Below, one piece after another: positions 59,445-64,000 of a stretch of DNA of 64,000 bases. Origin of the DNA: Gemmiger formicilis. Its GTDB lineage: Bacteria; Bacillota; Clostridia; Oscillospirales; Ruminococcaceae. The notes under the pieces are model-generated. The model did no database searches, was not told where the DNA came from, and saw only the letters and a program-made list of their open reading frames with translations. The translations under genes and the position numbers were made by a program. Numbering within the stretch: position 1 is the stretch's first letter; every line of letters starts with the position of its first letter. The stretch covers positions 1 through 64,000 of the forward strand of contig NZ_FUYF01000002.1 of assembly GCF_900167555.1 (NCBI RefSeq). Reading direction: 5' to 3'.

Positions 59445-60443
59445 ATGAAAGCAGTTCTGATTCCGGGCGACGGCATTGGCCGTGAAATTGCCGAGAGCGT
59501 CCGCGAGGTATCCGCCGCACTGAACACCGGCATTGAATGGCAGGAGTTTGCTGCCGGTGCCGAGTACGCCGCCGAGAGCGGCGAGCTGATCGCCCCCGGC
59601 ACGCTGGATGCGATCGAAGCGTGCGGCTGGGCACTCAAGGGCCCCACCGCCACCCCCATCGGCAAGGGCTTCCGCAGCATCAATGTGCAGCTGCGCCAGC
59701 GCTTTTCCACCTATGCAAACCTGCGCCCGGTGCACACGCTGCCGGGCGTACCGACCCGCTTTGACAATGTAGACCTTGTCATCGTGCGCGAGAACACCGA
59801 GGATCTCTACAAGGGCATCGAGTATATGCTGAACGACGAGATCGCCAACGGCGTCAAGCTCATCACCCGCCCCGCGTGCGAGAAGATCTGCCGCTTTGCA
59901 TTTGACTATGCCCGCAAAAATGGCCGCAAAAAGGTCACGGCAGTCCACAAGGCCAACATCATGAAGCTGACCGACGGCCTGTTCCTGCGCACCTTCCGCG
60001 AGGTCGCCGCGGAGTACCCCGAGATCACCGCGGACGACTGCATCATCGACGCTTTGTGCATGAAGCTGGTGCAGAAGCCCGAGCAGTTCGACGTGCTCGT
60101 CGCGCCGAACCTCTACGGCGATATTATCAGTGACCTGTGCGCCGGTCTCGTCGGCGGCCTGGGCTTTGCGCCCAGCGCCAACATCGGCGACAGCACCCGC
60201 ATCTATGAGGCCGTCCACGGCTCTGCCCCCGACATTGCCGGGCAGGACAAGGCTAACCCCAGCGCCATCCTGATGGCCTTTGCCATGATGCTGAACGACC
60301 TTGGCGAGACTGACAAGGCCGCCAAGCTCAATGCCGCCATCCTGGCCCAGGTCGAGGAGGGCAAGGTCGTCACTGCCGACATCGGCGGCACCGCGGGAAC
60401 GAAGGAGTTTACCCAGGCAATCATCAGCCGACTGGCAGAGTGA
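59445..60443 (+). CDS. icd: Isocitrate/isopropylmalate dehydrogenase family protein, probable NAD-dependent isocitrate dehydrogenase
   Basis: 332 residues, beta-decarboxylating dehydrogenase. VLIPGDGIGREIAESV, GPTATPIGKGFRSINVQLRQ, YANLRPV, VIVRENTEDLYKGIEY (phosphate/substrate loop), HKANIMKLTDGLFL, NLYGDIISDLCAGLVGGLG (metal Asp) and EAVHGSAPDIAGQDKANPSA. The short length and neighbour aconitase favour isocitrate over isopropylmalate as substrate. ATG after AAAGGGGAAAAGTACTATTT. Confidence 0.9.
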   Translation: MKAVLIPGDGIGREIAESVREVSAALNTGIEWQEFAAGAEYAAESGELIAPGTLDAIEACGWALKGPTATPIGKGFRSINVQLRQRFSTYANLRPVHTLPGVPTRFDNVDLVIVRENTEDLYKGIEYMLNDEIANGVKLITRPACEKICRFAFDYARKNGRKKVTAVHKANIMKLTDGLFLRTFREVAAEYPEITADDCIIDALCMKLVQKPEQFDVLVAPNLYGDIISDLCAGLVGGLGFAPSANIGDSTRIYEAVHGSAPDIAGQDKANPSAILMAFAMMLNDLGETDKAAKLNAAILAQVEEGKVVTADIGGTAGTKEFTQAIISRLAE

Positions 60444-60453
60444 GCGGTGCTCA

Positions 60454-60668
60454 AATAATAAAGAATAAATAAAAAATAATAAATGCGGTGGATCGCGTCG
60501 CTGTGCTCCGCTCAAAAAAATGTGCATCGTAGGGGCGCATTCTATATGCGCCCGCAAGGCGGCTGCCTGTGTCCGGGCGGATATGGAATCCGCCCCTACG
60601 TTTTTGTTTTCGACCAACGGGAGAAAACTCCACAATCTTTATTATTTATTATTTTTTATTTCTTATTT
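60454..60668. repeat. MITE-like element with A/T-rich terminal inverted repeats, copy 2
   Basis: Left end AATAATAAAGAATAAATAAA, right end TTTATTATTTATTATTTTTT; core holds GTAGGGGCGCATTCTATATG and GGGCGGATATGGAATCCGCC modules. It separates icd and acn. Same ends as the 18161 element, different core. Confidence 0.7.
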
Positions 60669-60688
60669 GCAAAAACGGAGGTTTTCCC

Positions 60689-62935
60689 ATGAAGCTGCAC
60701 GACACCGGCGTATACCTTGTAAACGGCGTGCCTCAGACTTCCGCCCCGGCGGGCGTCACCGAGGCAGACGCCAAAAAAGGCACCATCGCCTACGGCATTT
60801 TGAAGGCCCATAATACCGGTGACTCCATGCAGGACCTGCGCATGAAGTTCGACTCGATGACCAGCCACGACATCACCTATGTCGGCATCATCCAGACGGC
60901 CCGCGCGTCCGGCATGACGGAGTTCCCGCTGCCCTACGTCATGACGAACTGCCACAACAGCCTCTGCGCTGTCGGCGGCACCATCAACGAGGACGACCAT
61001 CAGTTTGCCCTGTCCGCTGCCCACAAATACGGCGGCATCTATGTTCCGCCGAACATGGCCGTCATCCACAGCTACAACCGCGAGATGATGTCCGGCTGCG
61101 GGCGGATGATCCTGGGCTCTGACTCCCACACCCGCTACGGCGCCCTCGGCACGATGGCCGTCGGCGAGGGCGGCGGCGAGCTGGCCAAGCAGCTCGTGGG
61201 CCGCACCTACGATATGAGCTATCCCGGGGTCGTTGCCATCTACCTGACCGGCAAGCCCGCTCCGGGCGTCGGCCCGCACGACGTCGCGCTGGCGCTGGTT
61301 GCCGCGACCTACGCCAACGGCTATGTGAAGAACAAGGTCATGGAGTTCGTCGGCCCCGGCGTGGCAAACCTGAGTGCCGACTACCGCAACGGCATCGACG
61401 TCATGACCACCGAGACGACCTGCTGGTCCTCCATCTGGCAGACCGACGATACCACGAAGAAATATTTTGTGCAGCATGGCCGCCCCGAGGCTTATAAGGA
61501 ATTGAAGCCCGCCGACGTGGCCTACTACGACGGCTGCATTGAGCTGGACCTCTCCACCGTCGAGTGCATGATCGCGCTGCCGATGCACCCCAGCTACGCC
61601 TACCCGATCCGCGAGCTGAAGGCCAACGCCAAAGAGATCCTGCAGGCGGCGCAGGACCAGGCCAACAGGCAGCTGGGCGGCAAGGTCGAGATGGACCTCG
61701 TCGGCAAGATCTGCGACGATGGCCGCATCTACGTTGACCAGGGCGTTGTGGCCGGCTGCTCCGGCGGCACGTATGAAAATATCTGCGCCGTGGCGGACAT
61801 CATTAAAGGCAAGAGCTGCGGCAACGGCGAGTTCAAGTTCAGCGTCTACCCCGACAGCATGCCGACCTATCTGGAGCTGGTCAAAAATGGCGCGGTGGCG
61901 GACATTGTCGCCGCCGGCGGCATCTTCCGCGAGTGCTTCTGCGGCCCCTGCTTCGGCGCGGGCGACACCCCGGCCAACGGCGAGTTCTCCATCCGCCACA
62001 CGACCCGCAACTTCCCGAACCGCGAGGGCTCCAAGCCCGGCGAGGGCCAGATCAGCGCCGTCGCCCTGATGGACGCCCGCTCCATTGCGGCCACCGCGGC
62101 CAACGGCGGCTACCTGACCGCCGCCAGCGAGCTGACCGACGTGGAGTACACCGTGCCCGACTACCACTTTGAGCAGGGAGTCTACGACAAGCGCGTCTAC
62201 AACGGCTGGGGCCATCCGGAGCCGGACTACGCGCTGAAATTCGGCCCGAACATCAAGGACTGGCCCGAGCAGCCCGCTCTGACCGACGACCTGCTGGTCA
62301 AAATTGTCAGCTACATCACCGACCCCGTCACGACGACGGACGAGCTGATCCCGTCGGGCGAGACATCGTCCTTCCGCTCCAACCCGCTGCGGCTGGCGGA
62401 GTTCACCCTCTCCCGCAAGGACCCGGCCTACGTGCCGAACGCCAAGGCCGTGAAGGCGCTGGACGAACAGCGCAAGGCAGGCAAGCTGCCCGCCGAGGTT
62501 GCGCGTGTCTACGACGATTTGAAGAAGCTGGGCTACGCGCCCGACGCGGCCAACACCAACATTGGCTCGGCCATTTTTGCCAACAAGCCCGGCGACGGCT
62601 CCGCCCGTGAACAGGCCGCCAGCTGCCAGCGCGTGCTGGGCGGCGCGGCTAACTTTGCCTGCGAGTACGCCACAAAGCGCTACCGCTCCAACTGCATCAA
62701 CTGGGGCATGCTGCCGTTCCTGGTGGAGAACCCCGGCGCGCTGGACAACGGCGATTACGTCTACCTGCCCGGCGTCCGCAAGGCTCTGCTGGAGGCCGCG
62801 GACGAGCTGGACGCCGTGGCCGTCAAGCCGGACGGCGGTCTGGTGAAGTTCACCGTCAAGCTCGGCGCCATGACCGACGCCGAGAGACAGATTCTGGCGG
62901 ACGGCTGCCTGATCAATTATTACAAGAATAACTAA
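60689..62935 (+). CDS. acn: Aconitate hydratase (hydratase/aconitase family)
   Basis: 748 residues, 4Fe-4S enzyme converting citrate to isocitrate. Fe-S cysteines: GCSGGTYENI region and CFCGPCFGAG (C-x-x-C); substrate motifs GSDSHTRYGALGTMAVGEGGGELA, SIRHTTRNFPNREG. C-terminal swivel domain with KRYRSNCINWGMLPFLV. ATG 60689 after ACGGAGGTTTTCCC; longer frame upstream runs through the repeat and is rejected. The order differs from AcnA; it fits the clostridial single-polypeptide group. Confidence 0.93.
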   Translation: MKLHDTGVYLVNGVPQTSAPAGVTEADAKKGTIAYGILKAHNTGDSMQDLRMKFDSMTSHDITYVGIIQTARASGMTEFPLPYVMTNCHNSLCAVGGTINEDDHQFALSAAHKYGGIYVPPNMAVIHSYNREMMSGCGRMILGSDSHTRYGALGTMAVGEGGGELAKQLVGRTYDMSYPGVVAIYLTGKPAPGVGPHDVALALVAATYANGYVKNKVMEFVGPGVANLSADYRNGIDVMTTETTCWSSIWQTDDTTKKYFVQHGRPEAYKELKPADVAYYDGCIELDLSTVECMIALPMHPSYAYPIRELKANAKEILQAAQDQANRQLGGKVEMDLVGKICDDGRIYVDQGVVAGCSGGTYENICAVADIIKGKSCGNGEFKFSVYPDSMPTYLELVKNGAVADIVAAGGIFRECFCGPCFGAGDTPANGEFSIRHTTRNFPNREGSKPGEGQISAVALMDARSIAATAANGGYLTAASELTDVEYTVPDYHFEQGVYDKRVYNGWGHPEPDYALKFGPNIKDWPEQPALTDDLLVKIVSYITDPVTTTDELIPSGETSSFRSNPLRLAEFTLSRKDPAYVPNAKAVKALDEQRKAGKLPAEVARVYDDLKKLGYAPDAANTNIGSAIFANKPGDGSAREQAASCQRVLGGAANFACEYATKRYRSNCINWGMLPFLVENPGALDNGDYVYLPGVRKALLEAADELDAVAVKPDGGLVKFTVKLGAMTDAERQILADGCLINYYKNN

Positions 62936-62942
62936 AGAAAAA

Positions 62943-62978
62943 CGGCCCGCTGGGAAAAAATCCCGGCGGGCCGCTTCT
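62943..62978. terminator. Hairpin terminator after acn
   Basis: 13-bp stem 62943-62955/62961-62973 (one G-T pair), loop AAAAA. The plus side ends CTTCTG (weak); the minus side ends in TTTTTCTTT. Confidence 0.65.
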
Positions 62979-63172
62979 GTAGGGGCTGATGCTTGCATCG
63001 GCCCGCGGAGGGGTCAAGACCTCTCCCTACAATGCAATTCAAAAGGGGTGCTGTAGGGGCGAACATTGTTCGCCCGCGGCACATGGCGGCGGTCACAACA
63101 CTTCCGGGGCGATGACGAGCATCGCCCCCTACACCGTAGGGGCGGATTCCATATCCGCCCGTAGTGTCCGGC
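62975..63172. repeat. Repeat modules upstream of the small antisense locus
   Basis: GTAGGGGCTGATGCTTGCATCGGCC, GGAGGGGTCAAGACCTCTCCC, GTAGGGGCGAACATTGTTCGCCC, GGGGCGATGACGAGCATCGCCCC and GTAGGGGCGGATTCCATATCCGCCC: five palindromic modules in a row. No gene. Confidence 0.75.
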
Positions 63173-63190
63173 GGATCGCTGCAAAAATTC

Positions 63191-63219
63191 TTGCATACCG
63201 TCGAAATTTCTGCTATAAT
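63191..63219 (+). promoter_or_regulatory. Promoter of the 29-residue gene
   Basis: TTGCAT at 63191-63196, 17-base spacer, perfect TATAAT at 63214-63219. Predicted start near 63226, giving an 80-base leader. Confidence 0.75.
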
Positions 63220-63306
63220 ACAAAAGCCGCCTGTTTCACAACAGACGGCAAGGCGCTGCACACAACGGCAGGCGGTTGGCCACACTTCCGTAAAGGAGGT
63301 GAGACC

Positions 63307-63396
63307 ATGCGTTTTACATTTACGTTCTATATCGGTCGCAAGACCTTTACTTTGAGCTTAGTTGTAAAAAGCAATAACCGCCACCCTGGCCGGTGA
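63307..63396 (+). CDS. 29-residue peptide, candidate type I toxin
   Basis: Very short ORF with the strongest ribosome site in the neighbourhood (AAAGGAGGTG, 63292-63301, ATG 7 bases after GGAGG). The peptide starts MRFTFTFYIG, has an alternating hydrophobic middle (TFTLSLVV) and a basic end (KSNNRHPGR); too short for a confident membrane helix. Its last codons form one arm of a bidirectional hairpin (63373-63404). Own promoter, long leader, long-range mRNA duplex and an antisense promoter all fit a type I toxin; a leader peptide is the main alternative. I do not know a named family for it. Confidence 0.65.
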   Translation: MRFTFTFYIGRKTFTLSLVVKSNNRHPGR

Positions 63397-63462
63397 CGGT
63401 TATTAGTTTGAGCTTTTAACTTTCACCTGAAAGGGCCAACCGCTTGTCGCAGCGCCTTTTCT
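63364..63462 (-). ncRNA. Antisense RNA overlapping the 29-residue gene (candidate antitoxin)
   Basis: Predicted from the consensus minus promoter (63497-63469), start about 63462, to the hairpin 63404-63373 followed on the minus strand by GCTTTTTAC. About 98 nt, complementary to the mRNA tail and the last codons. Its 5' part carries the same AAGGCGCTGC and GCGGTTGGCC words as the mRNA leader, so it could compete for the tail. Confidence 0.6.
63373..63404. terminator. Bidirectional hairpin at the end of the small ORF
   Basis: AATAACCG (63373-63380) with CGGTTATT (63397-63404), extended by CACC/GGTG; minus tail GCTTTTTAC is a good terminator, plus tail AGTTTGAGCTTTT weaker. Confidence 0.75.
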
Positions 63463-63468
63463 ATAGTC

Positions 63469-63497
63469 ATTATACCCCACTGCCGCGGCCATGTCAA
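63469..63497 (-). promoter_or_regulatory. Consensus antisense promoter
   Basis: Minus strand TTGACA (63497-63492), exactly 17 bases, TATAAT (63474-63469). All twelve hexamer bases match the sigma-A consensus. It is the best promoter I found in the window. Confidence 0.85.
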
Positions 63498-63504
63498 GCG
63501 TGCC

Positions 63505-63533
63505 TTGCACCCCGCGGCATTTCGTGCTACAAT
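63505..63533 (+). promoter_or_regulatory. Promoter of the Ntn-hydrolase-like gene
   Basis: TTGCAC (63505-63510), 17-base spacer, TACAAT (63528-63533); back to back with the antisense promoter. Confidence 0.65.
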
Positions 63534-63567
63534 AGACGTACCATTAAAAAACAAAGGACGAAAAACA

Positions 63568-64000
63568 ATGAGTGCGATTTTAGCAGTATGCGGTGATACC
63601 TTCTGCGCCATGGTCAGCGATGGCCGCTATGTCGAGGAACCCATCACCGGCGAAAAGCCCCATATCCTCAAAAACGACCTGCCCAAGGTCCGCAAGATCA
63701 ACCGCAACGTCGTGGTCGGTTTTGCGGGCGACACGCTGGCCGCCGTGCAGATCATCAACGCGGTGGACGAGTACCAGACCCAGTACCTGACGCTGGAAAA
63801 GGTCGTCAAGATCCTGCGCGAAAAGGCCGCCACGGTCTCGGTGCAGCCGGTGGGCGTGCGGCTCATCGTGGGTGGGCGCAACCGCAAGGGCGTGTTCACC
63901 ATGACGATGATGGGCAGCGTTGACGGCTACGAGCCGCAGACCCAGGCCGCCCGCAAGGGTGCCTACCTCATCGAGGGTGCCTGCTCCCACACCGACGTGG
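63568..64000 (+). CDS. Proteasome/HslV-like Ntn-hydrolase fold protein (truncated by window end)
   Basis: 144 codons seen, open at the window end. KVRKINRNVVVGFAGDTLAAVQII resembles the HslV/proteasome-beta region after the nucleophile (ARKVRRL...GFAGGTADA), and RLIVGGRNRKGVFTMTMM resembles the following strand. The usual N-terminal Thr1 (TT) is absent; the product starts MSAILAVCGDTFCAMVSDGR, so Ser2 after Met removal is the only candidate nucleophile at that place. It may be a non-proteolytic relative. ATG 63568 follows AAAGGACGAAAAACA. Confidence 0.6.
   Translation, partial: MSAILAVCGDTFCAMVSDGRYVEEPITGEKPHILKNDLPKVRKINRNVVVGFAGDTLAAVQIINAVDEYQTQYLTLEKVVKILREKAATVSVQPVGVRLIVGGRNRKGVFTMTMMGSVDGYEPQTQAARKGAYLIEGACSHTDV

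Follow-up and report, generated by a model that had tools for sequence, protein, structure and literature searches.

Positions 63191-63497 of a 64,000-nucleotide stretch of Gemmiger formicilis DNA (contig NZ_FUYF01000002.1, positions 1 to 64,000; hereafter the window) hold a compact locus in which a 29-codon open reading frame (ORF) is opposed by a promoter on the other strand. We consider it probable that this locus, one of a large family in Clostridia, is a type I toxin-antitoxin module in which the membrane-helix toxin would have been exchanged for a beta-hairpin peptide. Four lines of in silico evidence point this way, namely selection on the ORF, pairing of the leader with the tail in the sense strand, a conserved antisense promoter and terminator, and a scaffold shared with loci that carry other peptides. 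Transcription, repression, the involvement of RNase III, toxicity and the target are what we infer. As read from the sequence, the locus encodes a predicted antisense RNA that has its own promoter and is complementary to the putative toxin mRNA, and the pairing suggests that this RNA would prevent toxin synthesis.

A preliminary description of the window had proposed such a type I architecture, and those of its predictions that can be checked from sequence came out in favour. Re-reading its coordinates directly from the window, we recovered the ORF with its TTGCAT-17-TATAAT promoter and Shine-Dalgarno (SD) sequence, the perfect opposing TTGACA-17-TATAAT promoter 73 bases past the ORF stop, and two exact 10-base leader words complementary to tail words in nested order (63250-63259/63449-63458 outside 63272-63281/63434-63443). 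The conservation of ORF, pairing words, antisense promoter and terminator across related loci, which would be expected under that proposal, was also found, as detailed below. The features of the locus are as follows.

63191-63219, plus strand: promoter of the sense (toxin) mRNA, TTGCAT-17-TATAAT, with the -35 at 63191-63196 and the -10 at 63214-63219
63226-63249, plus strand: 5' hairpin of the mRNA, GCCGCCTGTTTCACAACAGACGGC, whose sequence varies between loci
63250-63259, plus strand: outer leader word, exact reverse complement of its partner at 63449-63458
63272-63281, plus strand: inner leader word GCGGTTGGCC, exact reverse complement of its partner at 63434-63443
63283-63301, plus strand: hairpin holding the SD, CACTTCC-GTAAA-GGAGGTG, from folding
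63292-63301, plus strand: SD, AAAGGAGGTG
63307-63396, plus strand: 29-codon ORF MRFTFTFYIGRKTFTLSLVVKSNNRHPGR, candidate toxin and predicted beta-hairpin, with ATG at 63307 and stop TGA at 63394-63396
63372-63405, minus strand: intrinsic terminator of the predicted antisense RNA, a 14-pair stem followed by CTTTTTACAA, which doubles as the peptide's last codons
63362-63466, minus strand: predicted antisense RNA (candidate antitoxin) of about 100 nt, matching covariance model R1 (see below) with E = 6.3e-18, the window sequence itself being part of that model's training set
63434-63458, plus strand: tail words GGCCAACCGC and GCAGCGCCTT, complementary to the leader, in a region also covered by the antisense 5' end
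63469-63497, minus strand: antisense promoter TTGACA-17-TATAAT, 12 of 12, with the -35 at 63497-63492 and the -10 at 63474-63469

Selection on the peptide

Peptides of the family are mostly 25-29 amino acids long, with a two-strand pattern and the consensus M[R/P]ITLxFHIxxxTVTIxVKSxNRH[P/S]x[R/K]. With the start codon and the last six codons removed, the ratio of nonsynonymous to synonymous substitution rates (dN/dS) was 0.11 in the 25-residue class (655 pairs), 0.22 in the 27-residue class (232 pairs) and 0.27 in the 29-residue class (38 pairs). Third codon positions hold most of the changes, and shifted frames of the same DNA give dN/dS values of 0.73-2.8. This pattern indicates that the small ORF is under purifying selection for its peptide, i.e. 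that it is translated.

Structure prediction was made on a 35-residue relative, L093, not on the 29-residue window peptide. The AlphaFold2 model (34 sequences) has strands at residues 2-9 and 12-19 and a loose tail; the predicted local distance difference test score (pLDDT) is 87-88 across the first 20 residues and the predicted template modelling score (pTM) just 0.32. The beta hydrophobic moment lay above the mean of the peptide's own shuffles for 78 of 79 peptides of this type (hereafter beta peptides, from beta loci), and their mean net charge was +5. The beta-type peptide is thus predicted to be a cationic amphipathic beta-hairpin.

No Pfam family was matched by the window peptide, nor was there a match above cut-off in NCBIfam for this peptide and one consensus peptide. 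Three beta peptides gave nothing above cut-off in PHROGs (one weak match, E 0.069), and a profile search of the PDB gave no matches. Five peptide words did not occur in 5.39 million open papers, and among the open papers listed for type I systems with Oscillospirales, beta-hairpin toxins or gut small proteins none describes the beta family in its title or the start of its abstract, subscription papers lying outside the scope of this search.

Pairing of leader and tail in the mRNA

When 63191-63497 was shuffled 3000 times with dinucleotides preserved, a nested pair of inverted 10-mers at least 100 apart arose once. Across loci, the duplex of a leader with its own tail has a mean energy of -52.3 kcal/mol, as against -39.3 with the tails of other loci and -32.3 for shuffled leaders. 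The own tail beats other loci's tails in 109 of 112 loci, and the duplex is stronger as the sense strand in 93 loci and weaker in 19. For the comparison by columns we used alignment A1, which holds 89 of 102 nonredundant loci, 13 having been excluded by eye for odd length or lack of a plain tail. Its two helices comprise 1265 Watson-Crick, 135 G-U, 22 A-C, 116 other and 64 gapped cells. The outer helix accounts for 532 Watson-Crick, 58 G-U and 13 A-C of 648 ungapped cells and the inner helix for 733, 77 and 9, respectively, of 890; two-sided changes occur in 8 of 8 and 6 of 10 pairs, i.e. in 14 of 18 leader-tail pairs.

When this named structure was set against controls, 91.0% of 1538 cells were paired, compared with 83.6% in shuffles and 33-53% with one side slid, and two-sided changes were found in 143 cells as against 35.9 (standard deviation 5.5) in shuffles, a count that 0 of 500 shuffles reached. 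The control strengthened the claim that leader and tail pair. Kinship among the loci raises such covariation counts, but alone it makes no strand bias. Because G-U outnumbers A-C by about 6:1, and an A-C in the sense strand is a G-U in the antisense strand, the helix appears to be selected in the sense mRNA and not merely as a DNA repeat. RNAalifold recovered the outer helix, with all six predicted pairs compensatory, as well as the terminator. Folding of three lengths, with or without the tail, placed the SD inside a 7-bp hairpin.

The antisense promoter and a terminator written into the peptide

In a promoter scan of 62000-64000 the antisense promoter was the single site reported (12 of 12; 0.5 expected at the threshold), and the sense promoter, with a -35 that matches the consensus at 3 of 6 bases, fell below the reporting threshold. 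Both recur in related loci. The antisense promoter scores at least 9/12 in 153 of the 160 distinct beta loci, in 31 of the 32 loci with membrane peptides (see below) and in 55 of 64 where no ORF was recognised, and by chance in 7.7% of shuffles; the sense promoter reaches this score in 106 of the 160 distinct beta loci versus 5.7% of shuffled regions.

The preliminary description had called the terminator bidirectional and had it overlap the last codons of the ORF. The overlap was borne out, whereas the stem has 14 pairs and the tail CTTTTTACAA on the minus strand versus 6 pairs on the plus strand. In the mRNA the one fixed mismatch of the stem is C.A, where the antisense RNA has G.U; the same mismatch was seen by eye in L309, a locus located via a neighbour gene. 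The terminator would thus act mainly on the minus strand and is not convincingly bidirectional. The pattern AACCGCCACYCNGNNNNGTGACGGTT, with which we searched for further loci, is the antisense terminator and, simultaneously, the peptide's last codons. It imposes 89 A-C cells in one terminator column of A1, that of the fixed mismatch, and these cells carry no evidential weight; the free terminator columns give a weak signal, with 11 A-C versus 5 G-U.

Among the 114 peptides ending NRHxx[KRQ], the residue after NRH covaries with the last residue (P..R 46, S..K 63, S..Q 5, mixed 0), the underlying bases being free in the pattern except for Y at the first. Since these two residues base-pair through their codons, the end of the peptide seems to be shaped by the antisense terminator. 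Outside this set, L258 ends R..G, which keeps the base pair but breaks the P..R/S..K rule. L044 and L053 stop right before NRH, and L167, L205 and L206 are without any NRH.

A scaffold shared with membrane peptides

Covariance model R1 of the antisense RNA was built from 41 of 79 antisense stretches, all from beta loci. Of the loci read, those matching it above about 50 bits are mostly beta loci, and many of those at 30-50 bits code for short hydrophobic peptides whose ends are rich in lysine (transmembrane, TM, loci). The automatic labels beta, TM and none err in places (L136, L223, L230; some loci labelled none have a missed start), and counts that depend on them, including that of the 32 TM loci, of which L136 is a mislabelled member, are approximate. 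With this proviso, 28 of the 32 TM loci pair the leader better with their own tail than with others', 29 form a stronger duplex in the sense strand, and 25 contain both the leader and the tail motif derived from beta loci at p <= 0.05.

We take the txpA and bsrG toxins of Bacillus subtilis to be members of Hol_Tox (PF16935), a family matched by 5 of 25 TM peptides at E <= 0.1. The L236 peptide scores 23.5 bits against a cut-off of 23.3, and its locus has both motifs. For L304 the score is 44.7 bits over the first 28 residues and 43.4 bits (E = 3.1e-11) over the 42-residue ORF, with the same cut-off; in its scaffold the tail motif is present, the antisense promoter scores 10 of 12, and leader and tail form a duplex of -64.4 kcal/mol. 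Nine loci found at class or phylum level have the tail motif in 7 cases and the leader motif in 7 (p <= 0.05). Beta and TM cargo occur together in four of 14 hand-mapped genomes (G109, G539, G569, G637), and in G109 two beta and two TM loci lie within one 5.2-kb stretch (L222). A third peptide class, MRISFDIWRFHVIINIKLKKHKK-like, is associated with strong leader and tail motifs in L322 (genome G1182) and L323 (G1158), both from the same phylum but another class; G1182 has 16 R1 matches.

Rfam had no match in the whole window at the gathering score and none at E <= 5 for the element (L001 1350-1750), and in ten TM loci no match exceeded the curated score. Nine low-score hits in the ten TM loci were discarded. 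L170 gave BsrG at 20.9 bits against a cut-off of 55, located outside the element; the hit in L214 (1499-1554), which overlaps the element, is to a plastid psbA untranslated region (27.8 bits against 55.8).

On balance we lean towards the wider view that this is a modular RNA scaffold of Clostridia and some neighbours, present both on chromosomes and on contigs of viral classification, and that its toxin has been exchanged in evolution (Hol_Tox-like, beta-hairpin, MRISFDIWRFHVIINIKLKKHKK-like). The beta type, which has the antisense terminator in its last codons so that its C-terminal residues covary as base pairs of the RNA, would then be the first non-helical class of small-peptide type I toxins.

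Distribution

The window genome (G000) has a second copy, G000:C54, with a peptide 79% identical. A protein search matched 10 of 297 family genomes at E <= 0.1, of which G000 and four others (G011, G104, G157, G244) were real after inspection; L007-L011 were dropped as chance matches. The pattern AACCGCCACYCNGNNNNGTGACGGTT found at least 120 genome stretches and 19 viral contigs, with 0 expected in the shuffled window. The titles of the genome stretches are nearly all Clostridia (Oscillospiraceae, Ruminococcaceae, Lachnospiraceae or unnamed); at least L036, L096 and L110 (Verrucomicrobiae) are apparent chance matches or remnants. Out of 159 pattern hits in L001-L155, 121 have an in-frame start codon, an SD and full flanks, and 115 of these are distinct. 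Of two phage records found by tblastn, L015 is a true member and L016 a chance match in which the scaffold is missing; tblastn against plasmids gave 0 matches. R1 found matches in 53 of 197 genomes of the family, 73 of 394 of the order and 7 of 35 of the genus at E <= 1e-3, and in 19 of 291 of the class and 5 of 249 of the phylum at E <= 1e-4; these sets overlap and each includes G000.

Ten flanking genes in seven of the 19 viral contigs were compared with PHROGs and Pfam. They include an integrase, an antirepressor, a phage-adaptor-like protein, an MmeI-type restriction enzyme and an S-layer domain protein. Because the remaining genes gave no PHROGs or Pfam match, the term phage-borne holds for some of the viral contigs only. 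In the viral contig L155 (2611-5364), a beta-type locus adjoins an MmeI-type restriction-modification gene. Tandem arrays also occur: L019 (DETN01000198.1, 396-2206) has five terminator copies about 450 bp apart, with four intact peptides of three different sequences and one copy without a recognisable toxin, and arrays are likewise present in G126:C92, G157:C22, G552:C63, L055 and L071.

Alternative explanations

An antisense-controlled small peptide might not be toxic to its own cell and could instead be a signal, a secreted antimicrobial or a regulator, silenced by the same scaffold. The beta peptide is indeed unlike known type I toxins, and a cationic amphipathic beta-hairpin resembles host-defence peptides in general character. 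We nevertheless judge this improbable: the scaffold is one that also carries Hol_Tox-type peptides, inspection by eye (no signal-peptide program was applied) shows no export signal, and copies with only the antisense part exceed those with only the toxin. When edge hits and duplicates are set aside, 137 pattern hits remain in L017-L155; 107 of them combine ORF and antisense promoter, 20 have the antisense promoter only, 7 the ORF only and 3 neither. The numbers are small, but the excess fits a toxin that would be unable to outlive its antitoxin. An intact antisense promoter and terminator without a recognisable toxin upstream were seen in L019:396, L021, L026, L106, L117, L164 and others; such toxin-less copies could be anti-addiction RNAs or decay products.

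A miniature mobile element, with leader and tail as terminal inverted repeats and no product of its own, is disfavoured and in our view very unlikely. It would account for inverted repeats close to both ends and for dispersed or tandem copies, several in some genomes, and there is one empty site. This is the paralogue site, which is empty in G948, a close relative that is otherwise colinear there (flanks 88% and 82% identical); the stretch from antisense promoter to leader is absent from it, and DNA matching the 5' hairpin and the sense -10 region is present. No target duplication was seen by eye at this one site. For the window's own copy we found no empty site, the neighbour gene being different in more distant Gemmiger (15 loci). 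Against a mobile element speak the codon-level selection on the ORF, the conservation of promoters beyond the repeats and the G-U to A-C ratio of 135:22, where a DNA repeat would be expected to give about equal numbers.

Slighter still is the chance that the minus-strand RNA is a functional trans-acting small RNA and the ORF incidental: the 20 antisense-promoter-only copies among 137 (about 17 by eye) would suit it, but not the low dN/dS of the ORF, 0.11-0.27, or the start codon, SD and full flanks in 121 of 159 pattern hits.

The reading that the preliminary description had itself named as fatal to its proposal, a leader peptide or attenuator of the HslV-like protease gene directly downstream (an arrangement shared by G948, G949 and L030, the last occupying the same site as the copy in the window), is scarcely credible, as that gene is preceded by its own promoter-like TTGCAC-17-TACAAT, a long match to the gene is found in 34 of 35 genus genomes yet 28 of 35 are without an R1 match, and L002, L032 and L111 match 60001-64000 of the window solely inside the element. 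The gene starts at 63568 and matches Pfam Proteasome with E = 3.5e-8; its promoter-like site lies at 63505-63533, with 3 of 6 bases in the -35 and a score below promoter scan reporting. The gene resembles HslV models weakly (NCBIfam 22.8 bits against a cut-off of 137). On the other side of the locus, 63054-63165 holds palindromic intergenic repeats, by eye of the types GTAGGGGCGAAC..GTTCGCCCGC and GTAGGGGCGGATTCCATATCCGCCCGTAG.

Observations that do not fit a toxin-antitoxin module

Returning to the type I toxin-antitoxin module that we favour, several observations weigh against it. The usual membrane helix of type I toxins is missing: the maximal 15-residue hydropathy of the 79 beta peptides has a mean of 1.3 (range 0.47-1.95), compared with 2.6 (range 1.99-2.99, n=25) for TM peptides. 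The helix is usual, not universal, as RalR and SymE are named as cytosolic type I toxins in the part of the literature cited here (PMC8309996). None of the 79 beta peptides matches Hol_Tox (PF16935) at E <= 0.1 or reaches any Pfam cut-off, and their weak Pfam matches fall in unrelated families; Bac_small_YrzI was rejected as their family, its matches being below cut-off (best E 0.027 and 0.038; 4 of 79 peptides).

As to the RNA, RNAalifold missed the inner leader-tail helix and folded its columns as a small local hairpin. The SD is paired in all three folded lengths, which leaves the switching-on of translation unexplained, and the SD hairpin is moderately above chance, with a stem of at least 5 bp in 136 of 158 beta loci versus 50% with a shuffled 5' arm. 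In L304 the leader motif is weak (p 0.057) and the ORF extends 14 residues beyond the Hol_Tox part, details that slightly weaken one link of the argument. L299 and L301 are short of one or both motifs at p 0.05, L301 having neither. The R1 match in just 7 of 35 genus genomes also counts here; because of it, the element is not a housekeeping one. Finally, another short ORF is present in L083, L102 and L119, three of the 20 toxin-less copies, and a degenerate promoter (scores 8-9) is seen in 4 of the 7 copies without an antisense part, so that the clear asymmetry is about 17 to 3.

Proposed mechanism

A sense mRNA of about 240 nt, if it extends to the tail, would encode the candidate toxin of 29 residues. 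With the SD in a short hairpin and leader and tail paired over about 25 bp, the full-length mRNA would be poorly translated or inert. The strong opposing promoter would give rise to an antisense RNA of about 100 nt over the tail and the last codons, the leader-like 5' part of which may compete with the leader for the tail. The duplex of antisense RNA and tail probably recruits RNase III, as in RatA/txpA and SR4/bsrG, and trimming of the tail could activate the mRNA, by analogy with aapA3. In excess, the beta-hairpin would probably disturb membranes or aggregate, which is a guess.

Comparison with known systems

In the Fst/par system of Enterococcus, convergent sense and antisense RNAs have repeats at both ends. 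The par repeats are direct, making the 5' ends of the two RNAs complementary, whereas those of the window are inverted, making the 5' ends alike. Closer in the architecture of the mRNA is aapA3, an aapA/IsoA locus of Helicobacter pylori, for which pairing between the two ends of the toxin mRNA and hairpins that sequester the SD are described, with hok/Sok named alongside (PMC6733600). The predicted mRNA of the window locus has both traits in common with aapA/IsoA and hok/Sok. In aapA3, however, the 3' end itself masks the SD (PMC6733600), whereas in the window the SD lies in its own hairpin, and it is the predicted antisense RNA, with its likeness to the leader, that covers the 3' end.

The toxins of the type I modules of Clostridioides difficile (CD2517.1/RCd8 and relatives) are 34-59 residues long and combine a transmembrane domain with a charged end, according to the portion cited of a 2019 review, which describes membrane toxins in clostridia and a TxpA-like sequence in Clostridium bolteae (PMC6563280). 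Its sections 2 and 3 give no beta-hairpin type of toxin for the C. difficile modules.

In txpA/RatA (PMC3531473) and bsrG/SR4 (PMC5848175), the RNAs overlap at their 3' ends and RNase III is required, as stated in the excerpts cited. The window locus resembles these systems in its short candidate toxin (BsrG has 38 amino acids), and its scaffold carries Hol_Tox in the relatives L236 and L304. It differs in that the window peptide has no membrane helix and reaches no Pfam cut-off, that leader-tail pairing in its family is long and conserved, and that the element is without an Rfam match.

Type I toxins are usually looked for as short hydrophobic peptides with charged ends, a search that beta-type peptides would elude. 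Searches can be keyed to the RNA half of such a system instead, and one control scaffold can apparently carry unrelated peptide folds: whichever the cargo, the scaffold is found in about a quarter of the sampled family genomes (53 of 197), at up to 16 places per genome. If the beta-hairpin is indeed toxic, it would represent a new means of intracellular harm in Clostridia common in the gut, with a bearing on the conflict between phages and hosts. Set beside the known systems, the class of mechanism would be a familiar one, and it is the beta-type cargo that appears to be new.
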